DNA from: a virus
DNA: 56,820 nucleotides
IMG/VR virus record: IMGVR_UViG_3300042691_011692
Coordinates: 1 to 56,820 of that record
Strand: one strand, 5' to 3'
The translations under genes were made by a program, and so were the position numbers. The notes beneath the pieces were generated by a model that did not search any database, had not been told where the DNA came from, and saw only the letters and a program-made list of their open reading frames with translations. Positions 30,717 through 55,692 of the stretch are shown one piece after another. Each line of letters starts with the position of its first letter. Positions within the stretch are counted from its first letter, which is position 1.

Positions 30717-30914
30717 AGAAAGCTGGTCTGACTTACTGGTACGTTTCTTAAGGCGCGGTGGCGATCCAATGGTATTAGTAATTTTGGTGCCATCGCTGTA
30801 GACCAGCTTAACTTCGACCATAGCTATGGTCTTGTCCCCAACGCTCATCTCGTTGAGGATTTTAAGCTGTATGTCTGTTAAATCTTTGAGCGTCATGGTG
30901 ATGTCCTCTATCAT
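30708..30914 (-). CDS. Small hypothetical protein, end of the minus-strand operon
   Basis: This 68-residue protein converges with the giant virion gene, overlapping it by nine bases, and overlaps the primase-helicase gene at its start (ATGA). It contains MTLKDLTDIQLKILNEM and a short beta region (MVEVKLVYSDGTKITNTIGSPPRLKKR). I recognise no family. Both operons end here and no clear terminator was seen. Confidence 0.65.
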   Translation of the reverse strand: MIEDITMTLKDLTDIQLKILNEMSVGDKTIAMVEVKLVYSDGTKITNTIGSPPRLKKRTSKSDQLSLL

Positions 30915-33778
30915 TTAACCACCTTCAAACTCGACACTGCCTGCGCTTCCAACTCGTTCTCAACTTCAGTGAGTATGCCCTTCAGTCGTGGGTGCGCAAG
31001 GTTGAAACCCATGACGTATATCTGTGGCAGCCTGATGCTGGTGCCTCTACCCATGTAGCACTTGTTGTTCGGTGGGTTACTCAGAGCACCAGCGTCAGAC
31101 AACTCTCGCGACACCAGACGGTAGTCGTGTCCATGCGTGGCAAGCCACTTACGGAAGTGCTTGCGATCCACCATGATGGTGCCTCGGTCGAACGAACTAG
31201 ACTGCGTCTGCCTGTAGACATCCAGACGAACGATAATGCCTTCGCGTGGCATACGGTTGTAGTCAGGCACACCCTTAGCGGCACCTGTGTACATCATGGT
31301 CAGCGTAGAGCCAGCACACTCGTTCAGATACTCACCGATCAGATCAAACGCGTCGACGGCAGAGTCCTTCATAGCAGCTCGGGTCAGGCCAAGCACACGC
31401 AGGATTTCCCGTGTACCTTCTTCATAGTTGTATCGCACCAATCCAAGCTGGCTGGCTTGCTCATTGGCAAAGTCTGCTGTGATGATAGCCTGTTCCCAGT
31501 AGCGCTCATGACCGACGAAGTGAACGCCGTACTTCTTCAAGAAGCGCGCCTTATGCAACGCGAGTGCTTCCGCAATGCCTTCCGGCCCCATGCTCATGTA
31601 GTGACGCAGCAGCTCCGGTCCGATGTGGCCGTAATTGTCCATGACTGTCTGGTAGATAAGCTCGCCGCCTTTGGAGTTGGCAGAGAAGAGCTTGTTCACA
31701 CCGAGTGGCACGTCGAGCAGACGCGCCTGCTGCGCATCGGTCTCCATCCCTGACAGCACCAGCATGGAGCCTAGTGACTTATTGGACGACGTGGTGACGA
31801 CGGTGGACCATGTCTTGATCGCGCGCTCTTCGACGTGCTTGGTGAGGCGTGCCTTGTCCCTGCCTTGTGAAATACCGTACAGGAAATCGCCGATCTCTTT
31901 GCTCGGCAGCATGGTCGTTTCGTCGATTGTAAACGGCAGGTGGTTGAAGAACCCGAGCCGGTTGAACATGGCGTTGGGTGTGAACCGTGCACTGTAGTGG
32001 AGCTTACGTGGGTTGCCCCAGAGTGATTGTTGCAACAGCTGCGCCAGTGTCTTGCCAGCACCGGTCGGGCCGTACAGGTTAATCACCACACCTGCGATAC
32101 CGCTGAACGTATACAGTGGCGCAGCCAGTCCGAGCCCGATGGAGAACATATGCGCATGCAGCTTGGCTGACTCCAGCAGCTCAGTCAGTTTGATCCACGC
32201 GTCGCGTGTGCCCTTCTGGCAGAACATGTCGTCAATGGAGCTTTGCGTCAGGCCAGCGAGTGAAATGGCCTCCGCTTCCACACTGCCGTCGGGCAGTCGC
32301 CGATACAGCGTGTTGCCCAGCAGGAACTGGGTGTGGTTCTCTTTCCAGCCCATGCTGCCGTACAGATTAGTCATGGACTTAAGCTGTCGCAGCTCTTGCA
32401 TGTATGTGCGTAGCATAGCTCTGAACAGTCCTATCTGTGCCTTGCTGTCGAGAAGGATGCCTTGGTCTGCGATAGCTGTGGAAAACTCGCGGCTGTCGTC
32501 GTTAAGCAGTGCCTGTCGTAGCACCAGCTCTTGCCAGCCTATGTGCGTTCTGTTCCACCGGAAGCGCACGACTTCGTAGCCGAGTACTTCATCGCGACCG
32601 TAGCTCATTGGGTAAAGATCAAAAGGACATATGACGATGTCGACGCCGTCGACACTGACGACAATCCCCTTGGCTGTACGCTTATACGGCTTCGGAATCG
32701 GTGCAATGGCAGTCGGCTCGTCAGGTGCGTCGGGTGCAACGTCAACTGTCGCATAAGCGACGCCAAGCTGTACCGGACTGGTAACCCGTGCCTTGACTGG
32801 GCAGCGGCGGCAGCCGCTCGGCCGCTCTTGGTTGAACCGCGCGCAGGTGGCAGGTCCAGTGGTGACCGCACGCCACTGCTCCATCTTCTTAATAGTCGTC
32901 GCTTCGTCGAACGACGGGTGGTCCTTACTCCACGCCACGGCTGTCGCCACAGGGTCAGCACAGTACGCAGCTACACCGAGCAGCGCATACCAGAACGGCT
33001 CACTTACATCGGCTTGGTTCTCCACGGCCCAGCGTACCTGGGCGCACTTGCTGATGATAGCATCCGGGTCTGACGGTGGCGAATCCTGGCTCGTGCTCAT
33101 GGCGTCGAGCAGGTTGCTCTTACGCGTTACAATCACAGCCGCTGGCACGTCGAGGTCGTGGCCAGCCAAGACGTCCTTAAGTTCATCTATTGTCGTTGCA
33201 GGTGCATCTATTAGCAGTTTAACTTCTTTTCCTGCACTGGGGTGCATAGTACCACACGCACGTAGAACACGCGCAGAATCGGCTGGCACAGCCGGGTCGA
33301 ACACAGGCTTGCCGTTCTCAGTGATGCCGCAGAAGTGCGGTACCAATGCCTTCAGGCCGTGAGCTACGGGCTTCCACTCGTCTGGTGTGGCCTCGTCTTC
33401 CAGAACCCAGTACACATGCAGGCCGTTGCCTGAGGCAACGATCATAGGCGCAGGCAGGCCGGTCTCCGAAACGAACTTACCAACGGCAGCAAGCCCAGCC
33501 TTCCAGCTACCGAACGGCTTACCAGGTCCGCAGTCCACATCCATGTAAAACGACTTCAGCGCTCGGACGTTGTCCTGCTTACGACTGCCCCATTCTTTGA
33601 AAGCAGCAGTGGCGAAGTAGACGTTATCCCCTCGGTCACTGCTGCTCTTCAGGAACGCCGCTAGGTCTGCGATCTCGTGAAAGAACTTCTGCCGTGGCTG
33701 GTCTCCAGGATTGATAGTGATACCAACATAGATACCCTCTTCTGGTAGTACCTTCGTAAGATGCGCAAGGGTGTCCAT
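30911..33778 (-). CDS. Primase-helicase (AEP primase plus P-loop helicase)
   Basis: This 955-residue replication protein has an N-terminal archaeo-eukaryotic-type primase: YMDVDCG (D80, D82) and SGNGLHVYW (H121) are the metal and nucleotide motifs. A Cys-rich stretch (TGPATCARFNQERPSGCRRCPVKA, near residue 310) may bind zinc. The C-terminal helicase ATPase has Walker A GPTGAGKT near residue 570, followed by a DUF927-type core with FTIDETT as Walker B. Together these would unwind DNA and prime lagging-strand synthesis for the phage polymerase. It is translated from the same operon as the regulator upstream. Confidence 0.85.
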   Translation of the reverse strand: MDTLAHLTKVLPEEGIYVGITINPGDQPRQKFFHEIADLAAFLKSSSDRGDNVYFATAAFKEWGSRKQDNVRALKSFYMDVDCGPGKPFGSWKAGLAAVGKFVSETGLPAPMIVASGNGLHVYWVLEDEATPDEWKPVAHGLKALVPHFCGITENGKPVFDPAVPADSARVLRACGTMHPSAGKEVKLLIDAPATTIDELKDVLAGHDLDVPAAVIVTRKSNLLDAMSTSQDSPPSDPDAIISKCAQVRWAVENQADVSEPFWYALLGVAAYCADPVATAVAWSKDHPSFDEATTIKKMEQWRAVTTGPATCARFNQERPSGCRRCPVKARVTSPVQLGVAYATVDVAPDAPDEPTAIAPIPKPYKRTAKGIVVSVDGVDIVICPFDLYPMSYGRDEVLGYEVVRFRWNRTHIGWQELVLRQALLNDDSREFSTAIADQGILLDSKAQIGLFRAMLRTYMQELRQLKSMTNLYGSMGWKENHTQFLLGNTLYRRLPDGSVEAEAISLAGLTQSSIDDMFCQKGTRDAWIKLTELLESAKLHAHMFSIGLGLAAPLYTFSGIAGVVINLYGPTGAGKTLAQLLQQSLWGNPRKLHYSARFTPNAMFNRLGFFNHLPFTIDETTMLPSKEIGDFLYGISQGRDKARLTKHVEERAIKTWSTVVTTSSNKSLGSMLVLSGMETDAQQARLLDVPLGVNKLFSANSKGGELIYQTVMDNYGHIGPELLRHYMSMGPEGIAEALALHKARFLKKYGVHFVGHERYWEQAIITADFANEQASQLGLVRYNYEEGTREILRVLGLTRAAMKDSAVDAFDLIGEYLNECAGSTLTMMYTGAAKGVPDYNRMPREGIIVRLDVYRQTQSSSFDRGTIMVDRKHFRKWLATHGHDYRLVSRELSDAGALSNPPNNKCYMGRGTSIRLPQIYVMGFNLAHPRLKGILTEVENELEAQAVSSLKVVK

Positions 33779-34478: not shown

Positions 34479-34742
34479 CTAATGGTGCTTCTTCAGAAGT
34501 TCAAGCAGGTTATTAAACCTTTCCCCCCTTGACATTCTATGAACTTCAGGCGTGGGGTACTGTTCTTCCTGCACAACGGCTAAGAGCTTACGCATAGCTC
34601 TACGTAGTTTATCGTTGACGTCCTTACGTGGAACGGCTCCCCGCAACCACCGGCTGTATGTCATCTTAGACACACCGATAAGTTGGCAAAACTGAGGAAC
34701 AGACAGCAGCATATGGTTACGCAGCCGCTCCACGTGCTCCAT
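34479..34742 (-). CDS. Small HTH DNA-binding protein
   Basis: This 87-residue protein has a helix-turn-helix near residues 13-35 (LSVPQFCQLIGVSKMTYSRWLRG), similar to Cro/XRE domains, and a basic C-terminal helix. The start at 34742 lies 11 bases after the preceding stop. It may be a regulator of early or late genes. The recognised target is unknown. Confidence 0.7.
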   Translation of the reverse strand: MEHVERLRNHMLLSVPQFCQLIGVSKMTYSRWLRGAVPRKDVNDKLRRAMRKLLAVVQEEQYPTPEVHRMSRGERFNNLLELLKKHH

Positions 34743-34752
34743 GTTAAAGGGC

Positions 34753-35718
34753 TCAGTCGTCGGCATCGAGGTTGTCCATGATCCCCTGGATTTCCTTAGC
34801 CAGTGCATCTGCACTCGACACCTCAACCGGTGCCGCAGGCTTGGTCGTCCGCTTCGTCACAGGCGCTGGCTTCTCCACTGGTGCCTTCTCTGCCATGAAC
34901 CCACGCTTGGGCGTAGCAGGCTCTTCCTTGACCGGGGCAACCGGCTCGGGCTTCTCACGGACCAGCAGGGGCTTGGGCTTCACCGGCTCGGGCTGGGCCG
35001 CAGGTGCAACGGCGGCAGACTGGCTCTCACCAGTGATCTCAAGAACACGATCAGAACCAATCAGCCTGTCGACAACGTCGCTGGCAGTCTCATCCACGAA
35101 CCCGGCGAACGCGAACTTCAGCTTGGGGAAGGATGCATCGGTGTCGAACGACACCTTGGTCCGCACGATCTCAGGCGAAAAGCCCCGTGCCTTCAGTTCC
35201 TTGTGGTAGATGTTAAGCCCCTTCAGCGCCGCAGGCGTAACCTGAAGCAGGTACACAGGTCCATCAGGGTCGTTCGCTGCCACCACTGCAAGGCGCTTCT
35301 GGTCCGCACAGGCTTTGATCTCCTGGCCCTGCGGCGTAACCTTAGACCCCCACTGGTTCTGCTTGCACGTAGCACACAAATCGTTCTGCGGTGACGTGCT
35401 GTCCGGGTGCGGACCAACGCCATTGAGAGAAAAGCAATCCGGTGCAGCAGGTTCAGAGTCCGGCGTCCACTGCCGCGCGTACCACGTCTTGGACAGCTTC
35501 GGGTTAACACCAACAATGATGACGTCCAGCGTGGTGCTGTCGAGCACAGTCTCACTGCCGCCGTCGATGATGCGGAACCGCGCACCCTTGATACTGATAC
35601 GAGGGAACGAGTCACCAGCAAGGCCACCGCTCATCGCGGTCATCAGTGCAGACTGCTGGCCGACACGCTTGGCAAGATGCGCAGGAACCTGGATATTCGT
35701 GGGGATAAGGCTAGTCAT
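34753..35718 (-). CDS. Probable single-stranded DNA-binding protein
   Basis: This 321-residue protein has an N-terminal beta-rich domain (FPRISIKGARFRIIDGG, LDVIIVGVNPKLSKTWY) with a zinc-like cysteine set (DCF, LCATCKQNQWGSK, ACAD). A long Pro/Ala/Lys linker follows, and it ends in an acidic tail IMDNLDADD. That layout, an OB-like core plus an acidic C-terminal tip, is typical of phage ssDNA-binding proteins. Its place in the replication operon supports the call. The ribosome site AAAGGAAAG precedes the ATG. Confidence 0.65.
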   Translation of the reverse strand: MTSLIPTNIQVPAHLAKRVGQQSALMTAMSGGLAGDSFPRISIKGARFRIIDGGSETVLDSTTLDVIIVGVNPKLSKTWYARQWTPDSEPAAPDCFSLNGVGPHPDSTSPQNDLCATCKQNQWGSKVTPQGQEIKACADQKRLAVVAANDPDGPVYLLQVTPAALKGLNIYHKELKARGFSPEIVRTKVSFDTDASFPKLKFAFAGFVDETASDVVDRLIGSDRVLEITGESQSAAVAPAAQPEPVKPKPLLVREKPEPVAPVKEEPATPKRGFMAEKAPVEKPAPVTKRTTKPAAPVEVSSADALAKEIQGIMDNLDADD

Positions 35719-45910: not shown

Positions 45911-46112
45911 TAGGTTTCTCCTGTTCGCTCATTCCGTCGCCGTCTATAAATCCGAAACTGCCACACCCTTTACCATTGCCGAAGAAGTTTCCGTGCGATC
46001 CGTACCCCTCGTTATCCTGCACCAGTGTGTGTCTGTCCTCAGTGTATCCATCCACATAGATATAACCTTCCACAAGACGCGGCCATAGACGCAGTTGCGG
46101 TGCATCGTTCAC
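45903..46112 (-). CDS. Gly/Tyr-rich short protein, third of three tandem copies
   Basis: This 69-residue protein starts with GTG at the stop of the upstream copy (TAGTG). Its first residues, NDAPQLRLWP, are identical to those of the 111-residue copy upstream. After that the sequence (GYIYVDGYTEDRHTLV, then Gly/Phe/Asn-rich) differs, so the repeat expansion seen in the other copies is missing or lost. No function is known. Confidence 0.5.
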   Translation of the reverse strand: MNDAPQLRLWPRLVEGYIYVDGYTEDRHTLVQDNEGYGSHGNFFGNGKGCGSFGFIDGDGMSEQEKPNV

Positions 46113-46447
46113 TATACGCCCCCGTTACCGTCGCCGTAGCCGTCGCCGTAGCCATAGCCGTAGCCGTCGCCGTGGCCGTTGCCGCCGTCGCAGTGGCCGT
46201 AGTTGTCGCCATAGCCGTAGCCGTCGCCGTAGCCATAGCCGTAGCCGTCGCCGTGGCCGTTGCCGCCGTCGCCGTAGCCATAGCCGTAGCCGTCGCCGTG
46301 GCTGTTGCCGCCGTCGCCGTAGCCGTAGCCGTTGCCGCCGTCGCCGTCGCCGTCGCCGTAGCCGCAGCCGTAGCCGTCAAACTCAGTCAGCACGCTACCT
46401 TGCCTAAGCAGTGTGGGCCACAAACGCAGTTGCGGTGCATCGTTCAC
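46112..46447 (-). CDS. Gly/Asp/Tyr repeat protein, middle copy
   Basis: This 111-residue protein starts with GTG at the stop of the first copy (TAGTG). Following a short start (NDAPQLRLWPTLLRQGSVLTEFDGYG), it is nearly all GYGDG, GNGHGDG and GYGYGDG units. The protein would be unstructured or form a low-complexity assembly. The DNA is a hexanucleotide array. The reading direction fits the operon, and the start is shared with neighbouring copies. Confidence 0.55.
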   Translation of the reverse strand: MNDAPQLRLWPTLLRQGSVLTEFDGYGCGYGDGDGDGGNGYGYGDGGNSHGDGYGYGYGDGGNGHGDGYGYGYGDGYGYGDNYGHCDGGNGHGDGYGYGYGDGYGDGNGGV

Positions 46448-46640
46448 TATACGCCCCCGTTACCGTTACCGTTACCGTCGCCGTCGCCGTGGCCGTTGCC
46501 GCCGTGGCTGTTGCCGCCGTCGCCGTGGCTGTTGCCGCCGTCGCCGTAGCCGTAGCCGTCGCTGTTGCCGCCGCCGTCGCCGTAGCCGTCGCCGCCGTTG
46601 CCGTCGCCGTAGCCGTCGCCGTCGCCGTAGCCGTCAAACT
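46120..46640 (-). repeat. CCGTAG/CCGTCG hexanucleotide array
   Basis: About 500 bases of CCGTCG, CCGTAG and CCGTTG units in two blocks, interrupted near 46377-46458 by the unique start of the middle copy. In the minus direction it codes for Gly with Asp, Tyr, Asn or His. Read on the plus strand it gives long Ala/Val strings, which are not genes. Confidence 0.9.
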
Positions 46641-46734
46641 CAGCCAGCACGCTGCCTTGCCTAAGCAGTGTGGGCCATAAGCGGAGAAGCGCAGGGGGCT
46701 GAGCCCCCTGCCAGTCAGAACAGCAATGAGACAT
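46447..46734 (-). CDS. Gly/Asp repeat protein, first copy
   Basis: This 95-residue protein has an ATG at 46734 that overlaps the end of the AAA ATPase gene by 20 bases, with GGAG upstream. It contains LLRLWPTLLRQGSVLAEFDGYG, as in the next copy, then GDGYGDG and GGNSHGDG repeats. The first 14 residues are unrelated to the other copies, so this one has a different or rebuilt start. Less certain than the middle copy. Confidence 0.45.
   Translation of the reverse strand: MSHCCSDWQGAQPPALLRLWPTLLRQGSVLAEFDGYGDGDGYGDGNGGDGYGDGGGNSDGYGYGDGGNSHGDGGNSHGGNGHGDGDGNGNGNGGV
46691..46711 (-). terminator. GC-rich hairpin after the AAA ATPase gene
   Basis: GCAGGGGGC and GCCCCCTGC pair with a TGA loop just past the AAA stop. 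No T-run follows. It may attenuate or protect the upstream transcript. Confidence 0.4.
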
Positions 46735-50282: not shown

Positions 50283-50307
50283 TGGTTGGTTCCGTGGGGG
50301 TGGGTGG

Positions 50308-50414
50308 GGTTGGGTTGGGTGGGGTTGGGTTGGGTTGGGTTGGGTTGGGTTGGGTTGGGTTGGGTTGGGTTGGGTTGGGTTGGGTTGGGTTGGGTTGGGT
50401 TGGGTTGGTGGGTG
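50308..50414 (+). repeat. GGGTT pentanucleotide array (G-quadruplex-prone)
   Basis: About 100 bases of nearly perfect GGGTT units lie immediately upstream of the HQPHYAAPQP gene. The G-rich plus strand has many GGG runs separated by two bases, which satisfies the usual G-quadruplex pattern. The array may affect transcription or replication, or may be a slippage-driven microsatellite. Confidence 0.9.
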
Positions 50415-50656: not shown

Positions 50657-50962
50657 CTACTCATCCATTACAGGTACGTGCCATAGGTCTCCATCCTGGA
50701 AGAGAGTGTAATGCCTTCCGTCGTGCGAGCAGTAGACGGCGTTAGCCAATGTCCTGTCCCATGCGTCCCAATAATCCTCAGCGTCTGGACCAGCGGCCAG
50801 GGTGGACCAGTCTTGATTGTCGATGTTGGTTAACTGGTGGGGGCGGACAATCTTCGTGTAGCGCTGAGGCAGGTAGATGCCCCAATGGTCTGCAATAACT
50901 ACATAGCTGTCGGGGTGCAGGTAGTGATCGCCTTCGCCGTCGGTGTCTGTGTCGTAGTCCAT
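50657..50962 (-). CDS. Hypothetical acidic protein, 101 residues
   Basis: This acidic protein starts at the ATG 50962, with GGAG ahead of it at the expected distance. It contains MDYDTDTDGEGDHYLHPDSYVVIADHWGIYLPQRYTKIVR and ends HYTLFQDGDLWHVPVMDE. No family is recognised. It is the first gene below the iteron region. A GTAACTGAA copy lies directly upstream of it (50977-50985), overlapping the spot where a promoter would be expected. Confidence 0.6.
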   Translation of the reverse strand: MDYDTDTDGEGDHYLHPDSYVVIADHWGIYLPQRYTKIVRPHQLTNIDNQDWSTLAAGPDAEDYWDAWDRTLANAVYCSHDGRHYTLFQDGDLWHVPVMDE

Positions 50963-50975
50963 AGATGTCTCCATT

Positions 50976-52186
50976 CGTAACTGAAGGGGTGATGCTGTGT
51001 TGATGATGCGTTGATACCACGGGTGTGGTGGAGAGGATGGAAGCGCCATTCGTAACTGAATACAACGCGGCAGAGTGTCGCATGAGGTAGAACCTAAGAG
51101 CGAAGCGTTACGATTTCGGGGTTTGTCGGGGGACCATGGGTGCGGGGGAAGCGCAGCGTTACGGTTTTGGGTTTGCGGTTGAAGGCTGTTTTCGTAACTG
51201 AAGCGGGTTGGGATATGTATTATTTAGATTATTGTAACTGAAGAAACGGCGGAAACGTAACTGAGTGTGCAGATTTGGTGTATTATTTGATTATTGTAAC
51301 TGAGTGTGTGCGTTTTCGTAACTGAGTGAGGGTTTTTGATGTATTATTTGATTATCGTAACTGAGTTGGGGACGTGGTGAGCCATGGGGCGGGGGAGCCA
51401 TTGGGGCGGTCGGTGATGTATTAAATAGATTATTTTGGGCTGTTTTCGTAACTGAAGGGGGGTCTTGGGGTGTATTATTTAGCTCATCAGTGGGCTGAGG
51501 ATTGGGAGAAAAGCCCGTAAACACGGGAATAATCTAGTTAGAAACGTAACTGTAGAGCGTTCAGTTACGATGTATCAAAAAATACTTGTAGCAAAATCAA
51601 GGGGTTAGCCACAAATAATCTAAATAATACATGTTTTTGGAGGTTGAGGGGGGGCTAAAAATAATTGAAATTTGGGAGGTAAGGGACACCATGGGGCAGG
51701 GCAAAATCGTAACTGAAGGTGGAAGTTGAAGAGGTGGAAGCGTTACGAATTCTCTGGTATTACAGTACTGGAGAAGAAAAAAAATTTTTCGCGTAGGTTG
51801 ACCCCAAAAAACACGTATTTTTTAGATTATTTAGATTAAATAAAGTAACTAAGAGAACATGGCTCCCCATATTTCCAGGCTTTGCTCGGACTGGCGCACC
51901 CCCAATCGTAACTGATATATCTCGAAATTCGTAACTGAACGACTAGATCACGTGTATCAAATCGGGGGGTAAATAGATTATTTCAAAAGTGTAACTGAAC
52001 TACCCCGTTTTCGTAACTGAACGACCCTCGGCAAATAGATTATTTAGATCATTGTAACTGAACAAACCTCAAAAACGTAACTGAACTGCCCAGATTTGTA
52101 GATTATTTGATTATTGTAACTGAACTACCCCGTTTTCGTAACTGAGCACGCCTGTCTGATGTATTATTTGATTATCGTAACTGAAC
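50976..52186 (+). repeat. Iteron array: 21 copies of a GTAACTGA motif
   Basis: Twenty copies on the plus strand and one on the minus strand (51561-51569); 20 read GTAACTGA and one GTAACTGT (51546). Starts (first base before GTAACTG) include 51193, 51233, 51256, 51295, 51317, 51356 and 51907, 51930, 51990, 52012, 52053, 52076, 52115, 52137, 52176. Intervals alternate between 22-23 and 39-41 bases, about two and four helical turns. The longer interval holds an AT-rich element (TATTATTTGATTATT and variants). No gene fits here. This is the best candidate for an origin, partition site or early-regulator array. Confidence 0.85.
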
Positions 52187-52338
52187 GCGCATGCCTGCGC
52201 ACAGTTTCAAAACATACAGAACATGGATGCTTAATCCGTCGTTTTCCGGGTATTCCTGCTCTGCCGTAGACCGGCTCGAAATCGCGCCCCTTGGGGGCTA
52301 GCACGGCCGTTTGTCCCCAGCTGTGGACCACCCTAGCC
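52187..52338. other. Spacer between the iterons and the terminator
   Basis: No gene, repeat or promoter is evident. A minus-strand reading of about 60 codons has no ribosome site and is not supported. Confidence 0.5.
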
Positions 52339-52374
52339 AAAAACAAAAAACCCCGTAGAAAACGATCTACGGGG
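52339..52374 (-). terminator. Intrinsic terminator of the small early operon
   Basis: On the minus strand a 9-bp stem (CCCCGTAGA and TCTACGGGG) with a 6-base loop is followed by TTTTTTGTTTTT. It lies 30 bases after the stop of the 50-residue gene. It is the clearest rho-independent terminator in the window. Confidence 0.85.
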
Positions 52375-52404
52375 CTTCTATAGGCATATGCGTTTATTGC
52401 ATAG

Positions 52405-52557
52405 CTAAATACGTTCAGCGACGATCTTTAAAAGTATAACTCCATAATTTTCGAGCCGAAGGCCGTGCAGCGTCGCTGCCGTCATGCTCTCGTGTGGGCT
52501 GCTGTCTTGTACTACCTGCCCGTCGGGCAGCTGCAACACTGCGTAGTAGACGATCAC
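52405..52557 (-). CDS. Small hypothetical protein, 50 residues
   Basis: It starts with GTG overlapping the preceding stop (GTGA), with GGGAGAG ahead. The product (IVYYAVLQLPDGQVVQDSSPHESMTAATLHGLRLENYGVILLKIV) is a small beta-rich protein with no family recognised. It ends the short operon before the terminator. Confidence 0.6.
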   Translation of the reverse strand: MIVYYAVLQLPDGQVVQDSSPHESMTAATLHGLRLENYGVILLKIVAERI

Positions 52558-52880
52558 TGCCCGCTCTCCCTGTACTGTCTTGCTGCTTCTTTTGCGATAC
52601 AAACAGACGTTGCGAGGCTATTACCTTCACCAACCTCACGGCATCGGCTGGCTGCCATTTCTCTGATCGTGCCGTGTAGCATGTCCCACCGGCTCAGCGG
52701 AATGTCATTCATGTGCGGATCGACTGACGCCTTGATACGATCGGCACCGATGTGTGCCACGACAGCCCGGACGACACCGGGCGTTACAAACTGTGCATAA
52801 TAGCCACGGTGCAGGCTCATTCGTTCTGCATCTGTCGTGTTACCTACGCATGCGGCGAGGTAGTCTTTACGAGTGATCAT
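52554..52880 (-). CDS. Hypothetical protein, 108 residues
   Basis: The ATG is preceded by GGAG at seven bases and overlaps the stop of the membrane peptide gene. The protein (ITRKDYLAACVGNTTDAERMSLHRGYYAQFVTPGVVRAVV) is helical and soluble. I recall similar small unnamed phage proteins with a HRxYYAQFV pattern. Function unknown; as the first cluster after the divergent region it may act early. Confidence 0.65.
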   Translation of the reverse strand: MITRKDYLAACVGNTTDAERMSLHRGYYAQFVTPGVVRAVVAHIGADRIKASVDPHMNDIPLSRWDMLHGTIREMAASRCREVGEGNSLATSVCIAKEAARQYRESGQ

Positions 52881-52996: not shown

Positions 52997-53577
52997 ATTC
53001 TCCGTTGCTGATGACCTATCTAGCCCCACTCGTTAGCGCGTGTCGATGTGGCAGAACGTCGCACGCGATCGGACCTAAGCCGTTGAACGAGCCGCGCCTC
53101 GATATAGGCGCTTCCCAGAGCATGTAGTTTTTCACGGGTTGTTTATCTGTAGTCTGATTGTTGGGTAGCTGAGTGTTTGCCGACCGATAGTTGGGGTGCT
53201 GATGGGGGCGGGGGTACGTGGACTGCGTTTTTGACCCCCGCCCTAGTCTGACGTAAGCCGCTTAAACCACGACCCCCCAAAACCAATTTGACTTTTACAG
53301 TATTACAGTACAGTAAAGTTAGCCAACCAATTTAGTTTTGTAGTATTACAGTACAGAAAAATTACCCAACCAATTTAGTTTTGTAGTATTACAGTACAAG
53401 AAAATTAACCAACCAATTTAGTTTTGTAGTATTACAGTACAGTAAAATTAGCTAGCCGCCCTAACCCTTAAGTGCATTCGCGTTCTTGTTTTGTTCTTAG
53501 TTTGTTCTTATTTGCGTCGTTAAGCACGCACACCAGTACCCTGTTGACTTTCTTGTCGCCTACGGTAGGTTAACGAC
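52997..53577. promoter_or_regulatory. Divergent control region between early and late blocks
   Basis: About 580 bases without a gene separate the minus-strand early operon from the terminase genes on the plus strand. It contains four 43-44 bp repeats (53281-53452) and two TTTGTTCTTA-like repeats (53491-53512). A TTGACT at 53544 lies too near the ATG for a clear promoter. It should carry promoters for both blocks. Confidence 0.6.
53281..53452 (+). repeat. Four 43-bp repeats with GTATTACAGTAC core
   Basis: Copies of AACCAATTT start at 53281, 53325, 53368 and 53411. Each is followed by the core GTATTACAGTAC at 53300, 53343, 53386 and 53429, exactly 43 bases apart (about four helical turns). A fifth core is at 51757 inside the iteron array. 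Probable operator or promoter array. Confidence 0.85.
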
Positions 53578-54060
53578 ATGCAACACTCTTTTGGCCCCAC
53601 GCTTCAGTGGACAGACCGCTTTGCATTCGACATTGCCTTGCGACTGGAGAACAGTGGCGAGGAGCTTTCTGACATCCTGGCGCGACACAAGTACACAACA
53701 GCGGACCTGTTGAAGTTCAACACTGATCCAGTCTTCCTGAAGAAGGTGGATGGTTATCGCACTGAGATTCGCGATAATGGTGTGACGTTTAAGATGAAGG
53801 CCCGTGCGCAGGCCGAAGAGCTGTTGACGACATCGTGGGTTCTTATCCATTCGCCAGACGTCAGTCCGGCTGTCAAAGCTGACCTTATCAAGTCTACGGT
53901 GCGCTGGGCTGGCCTGGAGTCGAAGTCGACCGAGGAAAACACGAACGGCACTGGTGGTGTGCGCATCACAATCAATCTAGCTGGACAAGATGTTACGACG
54001 GTTGTGGAGCCACCTACACTGGAGCTGGAAGCGAATCATGGCGAAGCGGACGCTGAGTAA
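53578..54060 (+). CDS. Terminase small subunit-like protein
   Basis: This 160-residue protein is the first gene of the late block. It has a helical N-terminal part (WTDRFAFDIALRLENSGEELSDILARHKYTTADLLKF), compatible with an HTH, a central coiled region (KMKARAQAEELLTTSWVLIHSPDVSPAVKADLIK), and an acidic C-terminus. That fits a small terminase: DNA recognition, ring formation, then an interaction tail. The large terminase follows after one small gene. The ribosome site is GGTAGG. Confidence 0.75.
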   Translation: MQHSFGPTLQWTDRFAFDIALRLENSGEELSDILARHKYTTADLLKFNTDPVFLKKVDGYRTEIRDNGVTFKMKARAQAEELLTTSWVLIHSPDVSPAVKADLIKSTVRWAGLESKSTEENTNGTGGVRITINLAGQDVTTVVEPPTLELEANHGEADAE

Positions 54061-54304
54061 GCGCAATCCGACCGATAACGAAGTTACGTTTACATCGCTC
54101 GATGAAGCCCGTGCGTTTGAGCGACGCCTTATGTTCAGTGGTGTGTCTTACAAAACGAACATCTCTAAGACGCGTAAGAGCGGCCTTCGTTACATTGTTA
54201 CAGTCTTTGACTTGACCCATTCTCTGGATGACCCAAACTGCTGGTGTGATCCTATCGTCGACGCAAAGAAAAACATCATCATACACAGAGCGACGTTTCA
54301 CTGA
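54038..54304 (+). CDS. Small basic protein between terminase genes
   Basis: This 88-residue protein starts at the ATG 54038 with GGAAG ahead, overlapping the previous gene by 23 bases and the next by one. It contains TFTSLDEARAFERRLMFSGVSYKTNISKTRKSGLRYIVTVFDLTHSL. No family is recognised. Its position suggests a packaging accessory. Confidence 0.65.
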   Translation: MAKRTLSKRNPTDNEVTFTSLDEARAFERRLMFSGVSYKTNISKTRKSGLRYIVTVFDLTHSLDDPNCWCDPIVDAKKNIIIHRATFH

Positions 54305-55692
54305 TGCCGCTTGAGATCGATTATACGCCAACGCTGACTGTGCAGAAGTTCATGGCCAGTGACGCAAAAATGCGTGTACTGATGGGTCCTGTGGGCTCGG
54401 GCAAGAGCGTGGCGTGTTGCTTTGAGTTGATCCGCAGAGCTTCGATGCAGAAGCCCGATGCCCGTGGCATACGTCGAACACGTGCGCTTGTGATACGACA
54501 AACAGCACGGCAGTTGGTTGATACAACAATAAAATCACTTTTAGATTGGTTTCCCCCAGGCGTGTGTGGTCAGTACATGCGCACGACGAAGACGTTCTTC
54601 TTTAAGGTTGGTGATGTTGAGTGCGAGATTATGTTCCGCGCTCTGGATGATTCTGACGACGTGGCGAACCTCAATTCTCTTGAGGTTACGTTTGCTTGGA
54701 TGAACGAGTGCCGTGATATCCATCCGGACATTGTCGATGCGCTGTCCAAACGTATTGGCCGTTTTCCGTCTAAGAAGGACGGTGGTCCGACGTGGCATGG
54801 CATGTGGGGTGATACCAATCCCCCAACGATGGACACCTGGTGGTTTTATCAACTCGAAGGCCTAAGCCCTAAGGACGGTGTGTCGCCGCTCCGCAACGGA
54901 TGGAAGGTCTTTAAGCAGCCGTCAGGGCGCAGTCCGCACGCAGAAAACCTGGAGAACTTACCCGAAGGGTATTACAGCACGGAAGGTCGCAGCGATGAGT
55001 ACATCAGGGTCTATATCGATGGTGAATACGGCCTGAGTTCCGCTGGCCAGCCTGTGTACAAATACTTCCGTCCTGACTACCACATGGCCAAACAGCCGTT
55101 GAAGTTCATTGCGAATGGTGTACGGCCGATTGTGGTTGGTATGGACTTAGGTCTGACGCCTGCGGCTGTGTTCGGTCAGCTTGACCCGCGTGGTCGGGCG
55201 CTTATCTTTGCTGAAGCAGTCAGCTTTGACATGGGTGTACAGCGGTTCGCGAGGACAGTGCTCAAGCCGTTAATCTACGAGCGTTTTCCGGGTGTGCCGA
55301 TCCTCATCGTGGTTGATCCAGCAGGCACACAGCGAGCGCAGACAGACGAACGCAGCGCGGTTGACATCCTCAAGGCTGAAGGGTTTAAGGTAATCCCTGC
55401 ACGGACCAATTCGATCTCAGCACGGCTCAACGCTGTGGATGACTTTTTGATGCGTCAGGTGGATGGCGACCCGGCCCTGTTGATTGACCCTGGCTGTACG
55501 GCGCTCAAGGCGGCGATGATGGGTGGCTATCGGTTTAAGCCTAAGGGTGATGGTGAGATCGAGAAAAACAAGGCGTCCCACGTCGCGGAGAGCATACAAT
55601 ATTTTTGCCTGCACATTGGGGTTGAGTCGTACGGGCAGGCGCTCAACGTAAGGCGCGAGGTTCGGCCTATACAGTCCATGGGGTGGACGTAA
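54304..55692 (+). CDS. Terminase large subunit
   Basis: This 462-residue packaging motor has an N-terminal ATPase with Walker A GPVGSGKS (residues 28-35) and a motif VTFAWMNECRD near residue 130 as Walker B with catalytic Glu. The C-terminal RNase H-like nuclease has VVGMDLGLTPAAVFGQ (first Asp), LIVVDPAG, and a late ASHVAESIQYFCLH stretch. It pumps DNA into the procapsid and cuts it. The start overlaps the previous gene's stop (TGATG). Confidence 0.92.
   Translation: MPLEIDYTPTLTVQKFMASDAKMRVLMGPVGSGKSVACCFELIRRASMQKPDARGIRRTRALVIRQTARQLVDTTIKSLLDWFPPGVCGQYMRTTKTFFFKVGDVECEIMFRALDDSDDVANLNSLEVTFAWMNECRDIHPDIVDALSKRIGRFPSKKDGGPTWHGMWGDTNPPTMDTWWFYQLEGLSPKDGVSPLRNGWKVFKQPSGRSPHAENLENLPEGYYSTEGRSDEYIRVYIDGEYGLSSAGQPVYKYFRPDYHMAKQPLKFIANGVRPIVVGMDLGLTPAAVFGQLDPRGRALIFAEAVSFDMGVQRFARTVLKPLIYERFPGVPILIVVDPAGTQRAQTDERSAVDILKAEGFKVIPARTNSISARLNAVDDFLMRQVDGDPALLIDPGCTALKAAMMGGYRFKPKGDGEIEKNKASHVAESIQYFCLHIGVESYGQALNVRREVRPIQSMGWT

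Follow-up and report, generated by a model that had tools for sequence, protein, structure and literature searches.

A two-word repeat array upstream of terL as a candidate replication origin in a clade of uncultured phages

The locus and its repeat array

Virus record IMGVR_UViG_3300042691_011692 of IMG/VR is a 56,820-bp stretch of DNA (the window, analysed at its full length) in which a dense array of short repeats occupies about 1.2 kb near the right end. Both ends of the window lie in a collagen-like tandem repeat. The gene terL (54304-55692) and the structural genes point rightward, the replication genes point leftward from about 50.4 to 30.9 kb, and the array sits in a gene-free stretch between the two groups. 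A preliminary description of this DNA had already called the region gene-free, a fair statement: the gene to the left most likely starts at 50962 (ribosome-binding site GGAG), and the open reading frames (ORFs) that overlap the array have no family support. A similarity search of the array DNA against known phages gave no match, and no Rfam family was matched between 49.0 and 54.5 kb. The features of the region can be listed as follows.

50975..52186, plus strand: dual-motif array, proposed replication origin, with 20 exact GTAACTGA and the genome-wide maximum of both motifs
50975..51455, plus strand: left iteron block, with 9 exact GTAACTGA on this strand and spacers that are G-rich on it
51460..51850, no strand: centre, candidate unwinding region, GC about 0.38-0.40
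51905..52186, plus strand: right iteron block, with 9 exact GTAACTGA on this strand and the most regular units, of 60-63 bp
51225..52107, both strands: AT element TAGATnnTT, 9 exact copies and TTTGATTATT variants
52346..52379, minus strand: intrinsic terminator-like hairpin, which would stop leftward transcription ahead of the array

The first repeated word, GTAACTGA, has eight letters and occurs in 23 exact copies in the window, against 1.47 expected from dinucleotide shuffles (none of 100 shuffles reached 23). Twenty of these copies fall within 50977-52184, 19 on the plus strand and one on the minus strand at 51561, and two one-base variants, GTAACTGT at 51546 and GTAACTAA at 51845, bring the plus-strand total to 21. 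The preliminary count of 21 motifs, 20 in one orientation and one inverted, was right to within one, and the three inverted partial sites that accompanied it (GCGTTACG at about 51105, 51155 and 51739) are all present. Information content is 1.7-2.0 bits per position in the core of the word and mostly 0.1-0.4 bits in the spacers, a pattern which argues for selection on the word rather than mere recent duplication.

The spacing of the iterons is less regular than it had appeared. Successive intervals are 75, 142, 40, 23, 39, 22, 39, 91, 98, 163, 136, 63, 23, 60, 22, 41, 23, 39, 22 and 39 bp. An alternation of about 22 and 40 bp, with a unit of 61-62 bp, had been described for the whole array; it stands in two sub-blocks, 51234-51357 and 51908-52177, where intervals of 22-23 and 39-41 bp form a full unit of 60-63 bp, and it fails over the rest. 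Tandem Repeats Finder detects both regular blocks, with a period of 61. The near-helical phasing drawn from that unit is weakened to a marginal effect, as the best resultant (0.54, at periods of 10-11 bp) is reached by 2.6% of random placements (p about 0.03).

Exact copies of the second word, TAGATnnTT, start in the array at 51225, 51426, 51528 (minus strand), 51614 (minus strand), 51823, 51974, 52036, 52045 and 52099. Genome-wide there are 11 copies against 3.4 expected, a number that none of 100 shuffles reached, and nine of the 11 lie in the array; this enrichment implies a second word that is more than plain AT-richness. An AT element had been assigned to every longer interval. It does directly abut the upstream GTAACTGA of the pair in most of the regular units, the exceptions being 51908 and the partly degenerate 51991, and it is also found alone and, in the array centre, inverted. 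The centre contains two AT elements in inverted orientation (51528, 51614), the array's one GTAACTGA copy on the minus strand (51561-51568) and, sparsely placed, three iterons or variants (51546, 51709, 51845). GC content is 0.38-0.41 at 51501-52250 and 0.5-0.6 around it. As in iteron origins, the array is a non-coding cluster of short direct repeats with an adjacent AT-rich region.

Conservation and the genes that accompany the array

Searches of IMG/VR with terL and with polA each provided 80 loci from a pool of about 355 relatives. Array position was surveyed in 20 oriented genomes (the window and 19 uncultured IMG/VR relatives), using iteron patterns derived from the surveyed genomes themselves and without prescribing a position. 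In each of the 20 genomes the 1-kb stretch richest in iterons is located 2-5 kb upstream of terL, the maximum being weak in G023 and G028, where similar counts occur elsewhere in the genome. The stretch richest in TAGATnnT co-clusters in the same 2-5 kb in 16 of the 20. Iteron words differ by lineage: TGTAAAG and TGTCAAG are common, TGTAACC is found in G027 and G015, and GTCAAGTT occurs 15 times in G017; for TAGATnnT, the variation tabulated among relatives comprises TA, TG, AG and CG. The preliminary description had named conservation in related phages among its tests. Position and dual-word type are conserved, and the exact word and spacing are not.

Several other repeats were seen in these relatives. 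G028 (L234-L236) carries a different dense array, TTGGCATA in 16 copies and TTTTGGAT in 11, 0.5-1.1 kb upstream of terL, and has few of the usual iterons. A 14-mer, CCCCCGACGTATGG, or CCCCCG(A/G)CG(T/A)ATGG, marks the array's right edge, in single copy, in 25 of 40 relatives (L188-L238 and others), in constant orientation and often after TATAAA; it was rejected as a part of the window array, being absent from the window and also from G017. The gene to the right of the array (52554-52880) was tried as an anchor for finding relatives and yielded 7 loci only.

Three conserved neighbours are encoded in 22 of 22 genomes: a 321-residue protein, a small helix-turn-helix (HTH) protein and a 955-residue PrimPol-helicase. 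In the window these genes are arranged as follows.

30911..33778, minus strand: PrimPol (AEP) fused to a DUF927 MCM-like AAA+ helicase, a Cch/SaPIbov1-Rep-like initiator by homology
34482..34826, minus strand: small Xre/HTH_3-type protein, candidate iteron binder, with Arg59 in its recognition helix (model residues 54-61)
34756..35718, minus strand: conserved 321-residue protein adjoining the HTH gene, putatively like a single-stranded DNA-binding protein (SSB) in view of its acidic C-terminus

The preliminary description had identified no Rep-like gene, a view that the PrimPol-helicase overturns. By sequence and structural model, the 955-residue protein is a Rep-type initiator helicase homologous to Cch of the staphylococcal cassette chromosome (SCC) and to Rep of the Staphylococcus aureus pathogenicity island (SaPI) SaPIbov1. 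Its model (mean predicted local distance difference test score 80.6) aligns with SCC Cch (5dgk) at Z 28.5 over 493 residues (root-mean-square deviation 6.7; model residues 358-941) and with SaPIbov1 Rep (8tch) at Z 25.8, the two matches together spanning 358-949. Residues 1-205 resemble the S-2L PrimPol domain (6zp9) at Z 17.6. By analogy with these proteins, the PrimPol-helicase may act on the array.

The word itself is more likely read by the small HTH protein, which the preliminary description had put forward for footprinting and which is now the best candidate binder. The GcrA-like protein, proposed alongside it and encoded in the window by a gene inserted between those for the HTH and 955-residue proteins, was rejected as a conserved binder, since 4 of 38 records gave a match and three of these matches were weak. 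An HTH_3 profile matches 20 of 22 members of the HTH family (best E 1.5e-6), the window protein falling below the cut-off (18.3 of 23 bits), and its model resembles Xre-type proteins at Z 5-7. At one recognition-helix position in the HTH alignment the window, G027 and G015 have Arg, and the other genomes have Gly, Ser, Asn or Asp. In 434 repressor the equivalent of this position, Arg59, is presumably Gln33, which contacts bases.

The identity of this residue follows the iteron word. All four Arg genomes have GTAAC iterons and all 36 Gly, Ser, Asn or Asp genomes have GTMAAG, three of the latter (G023, G050, G051) being weak or tied. In the first three Arg genomes GTAAC outnumbers GTMAAG by 20 to 0, 13 to 3 and 12 to 2. 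The fourth, G068, came from a scan of proteins for the Arg type, and the TGTAACC cluster predicted from it was then found (11 copies in 600 bp). On the trees G017 is the sister of the window and G010/G013 of G027/G015, so that the Arg label requires two changes on each of three trees; the Arg and GTAAC pairing would then have been gained twice independently. Between G027/G015 and G010/G013 the AT element is kept and both the HTH helix and the iteron have changed. For the G010-type HTH protein, TGTAAAGTT can be set beside GTAACTGA as the counterpart word. Per-column co-variation was also considered alone as a pointer, and does not single out the HTH protein; the HTH column counts mainly because it is located in the recognition helix. 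Taken together, the protein at 34482-34826 is the likely reader of GTAACTGA, as judged from sequence comparison.

Origin reading and its alternatives

The preliminary description left three options, namely a replication origin, a partition site or a repressor array. The first is the best supported, and we consider it probable that the array is the phage replication origin, with the HTH protein on the iterons and the PrimPol-helicase loaded there. Several lines of evidence point this way. The repeats far exceed chance, their cores are invariant while the spacers drift, and the position of the array upstream of terL is kept across the clade. Two iteron blocks flank an AT-rich centre, as in published origins of phage-inducible chromosomal islands (PICIs) and SaPIs. 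An initiator-type helicase and an HTH protein are encoded in 22 of 22 genomes, the cultured phage Rollin has a similar repeat region and the same order of replication genes, and the terminator shields the array.

In the mechanism we propose, the small Xre-type protein would first bind the GTAACTGA iterons and mark the origin. The PrimPol-helicase would next assemble on the array, with its C-terminal domain and the AT elements as possible points of contact, and the AT-rich core between the iteron blocks would melt. The helicase would then load, the fused PrimPol would prime, and the phage PolA would elongate. A more specific form of this proposal, which we hold only tentatively, is that origin recognition is split: an Xre-type HTH protein of 95-115 residues would fix the iteron word, and a PrimPol-fused, MCM-like, self-loading helicase would act on the AT word. 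A single recognition-helix change from Gly, Ser or Asn to Arg would then shift GTMAAG to GTAAC, and the split would set the helicase apart from its solved relatives, which are thought to find origins alone.

A number of observations weigh against an origin read in this way. The array is about 17 kb from the helicase gene, whereas SaPI-type origins adjoin rep. GC skew gives no clean origin mark, with a fall from plus to minus inside the array, and it is inflated by a GGGTT pentanucleotide repeat at 50297-50408 (about 22 copies, 95% identity, local GC skew up to +0.72). Tandem duplication contributes something to the regularity of the spacing. Two evolutionary events underlie the HTH co-variation, residues specific to the Arg group occur in other proteins at about 0.4% of columns (17 over 11 proteins), and Xre-type HTH proteins are usually transcription regulators. 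As independent origin evidence GC skew was set aside, since it tracks the direction of the genes and tandem repeats distort it. A DnaA-dependent origin was likewise discarded: DnaA boxes are not enriched (41 with at most one mismatch against 37 expected genome-wide), and one lies in the array.

One alternative still places an origin here and overlaps with the preferred reading. The C-terminal domain of the PrimPol-helicase, rather than the HTH protein, would read GTAACTGA, and the HTH co-variation would be coincidence. SaPI Rep locates its origin, and both it and Cch2 bind iterons, by a C-terminal domain (PMC7581432), and our model covers the homologous region. However, none of the six Arg-group-specific residues of the helicase (155, 373, 516, 525, 561, 604) lies in the C-terminal part, and the HTH change falls in a recognition helix; we regard this alternative as unlikely.

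A repressor array, or more generally an operator array, for the same HTH protein is another of the chief rivals. Here a repressor or activator would coat a divergent early/late control region with no origin in it. The Xre-like fold suits such a role, the early promoter for leftward transcription has to be in or close to the left block, and the iteron at 50977-50984, listed as inverted, abuts the ribosome-binding site of the first leftward gene. Isolated sites ahead of early genes also occur in some relatives. Yet sigma-70-like sites are fewer than in shuffles (1 against 2.7), iterons outside the array rarely abut start sites, about 20 sites, accompanied by an AT element conserved with them, are more than a usual operator has, and the HTH gene sits in the replication block near the helicase gene. 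We think this explanation rather unlikely, and the HTH protein may additionally act as a regulator. An array of sigma-70 promoters was rejected, the sites being below chance. In several relatives (L222-L224, L185-L187, L179-L181) an inverted iteron pair, CTTGACA...TGTAAAG, stands ahead of the start of a leftward early gene close to the SNF2 helicase, and may be an operator for the HTH protein.

A role as packaging site (pac), with the nearby-encoded small terminase subunit as reader, is improbable. In its favour, 1.4 kb separates the array from the terS-like gene at 53578, and throughout the clade terL follows the array at a distance of 2-5 kb. Against it, a separate cluster of four 43-bp repeat units (53281-53452) adjoins the terS-like gene directly, and G017 has a cluster in a comparable position; moreover, a pac site would not usually comprise about 20 sites spread over 1.2 kb, and the TerS-like protein has one Arg-group-specific residue (V139), at a highly variable column. 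These four tandem repeats (AACCAATTTAGTTTTGTAGTATTACAGTACAGTAAAATTAGCC) are themselves a candidate packaging site; in G017, repeats of the ACACGTGTAACTT type are found 1.0-1.3 kb upstream of terL. The remaining option, a centromere or partition site that would belong to a plasmid-like prophage, is very improbable: iteron-like arrays are typical of some par sites, but ParA AAA_31 (PF13614), ParB_N (PF02195) and tyrosine integrase are unmatched in the record while the controls are detected, the search having been directed at these and not at other partition types.

Comparison with known origins and neighbouring observations

Iteron origins and SaPI-type helicases are already known, and what is new is that four features occur together: the helicase carries a fused PrimPol, the array lies far from its gene, two words are conserved jointly, and a separate HTH protein varies in step with the iteron word. 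A description of an origin for this clade was not found in the open-licence papers searched. In PICI and SaPI origins an AT-rich region is flanked by two sets of iterons (PMC6092414), a layout shared by the window along with a homologous AAA+ initiator helicase. In those elements the origin is immediately 3' of rep, whereas here the array (51.0-52.2 kb) is remote from the helicase gene (30.9-33.8 kb); the PrimPol fusion, about 20 iterons, a second repeated element and a separate HTH protein as the likelier reader are further differences. The closest solved structure of the helicase half is SCCmec Cch (5dgk, as above). Cch2 binds direct repeats downstream of its own gene (PMC7581432), but it is of the Primase_Cterm/D5 type rather than DUF927, has three iterons only, and no accessory HTH protein is described there. 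In iteron plasmid origins such as TrfA/oriV, double-stranded iterons and repeated AT-rich elements (13-mers of the DNA unwinding element) are both required (PMC4081077). The window resembles these in its iterons and repeated AT-rich elements; their Rep is a winged-helix protein, of which none was recognised here, and DnaA boxes, as noted, are not enriched.

The origin of phage lambda lies inside the O gene and has four iterons adjoining an AT-rich region, with a separate DNA-binding initiator and the host helicase DnaB. Iterons beside an AT-rich region and the division between DNA-binding initiator and helicase are common to both, whereas the array described here is gene-free, has about 20 iterons and is accompanied by the phage's own helicase. 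Pseudomonas phage Rollin (OR577172) has gene-free repeats at its left end, upstream of terL, and the same gene order of SSB-like protein, small HTH protein and PrimPol-helicase. Its repeats are AAAAGGTAGYAA/TTRCTACCTTTT palindromes, not annotated as an origin, and its small HTH protein has very weak similarity (hhalign E 0.014, probability 3%). In the more distant Rhizobium phage RHph_TM3_14A no comparable repeat array was seen.

If the origin reading is correct, a clade of hundreds of IMG/VR contigs (354 terL and 340 HTH relatives were matched) gains an identified origin, together with its initiator helicase and the protein that reads it. The natural series of paired changes in protein and word would make origin specificity directly testable with purified proteins, and Rollin, as a cultured relative, offers an infection system. 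Split recognition, if true, would amount to a bipartite origin system, similar to that of the origin recognition complex, in a widespread clade of uncultured phages.

Elsewhere in the window, two adjacent low-complexity ORFs of GDGYG type (46112-46660) carry CGGCGACG words, and similar repeats are found in G017 (L228-L230).
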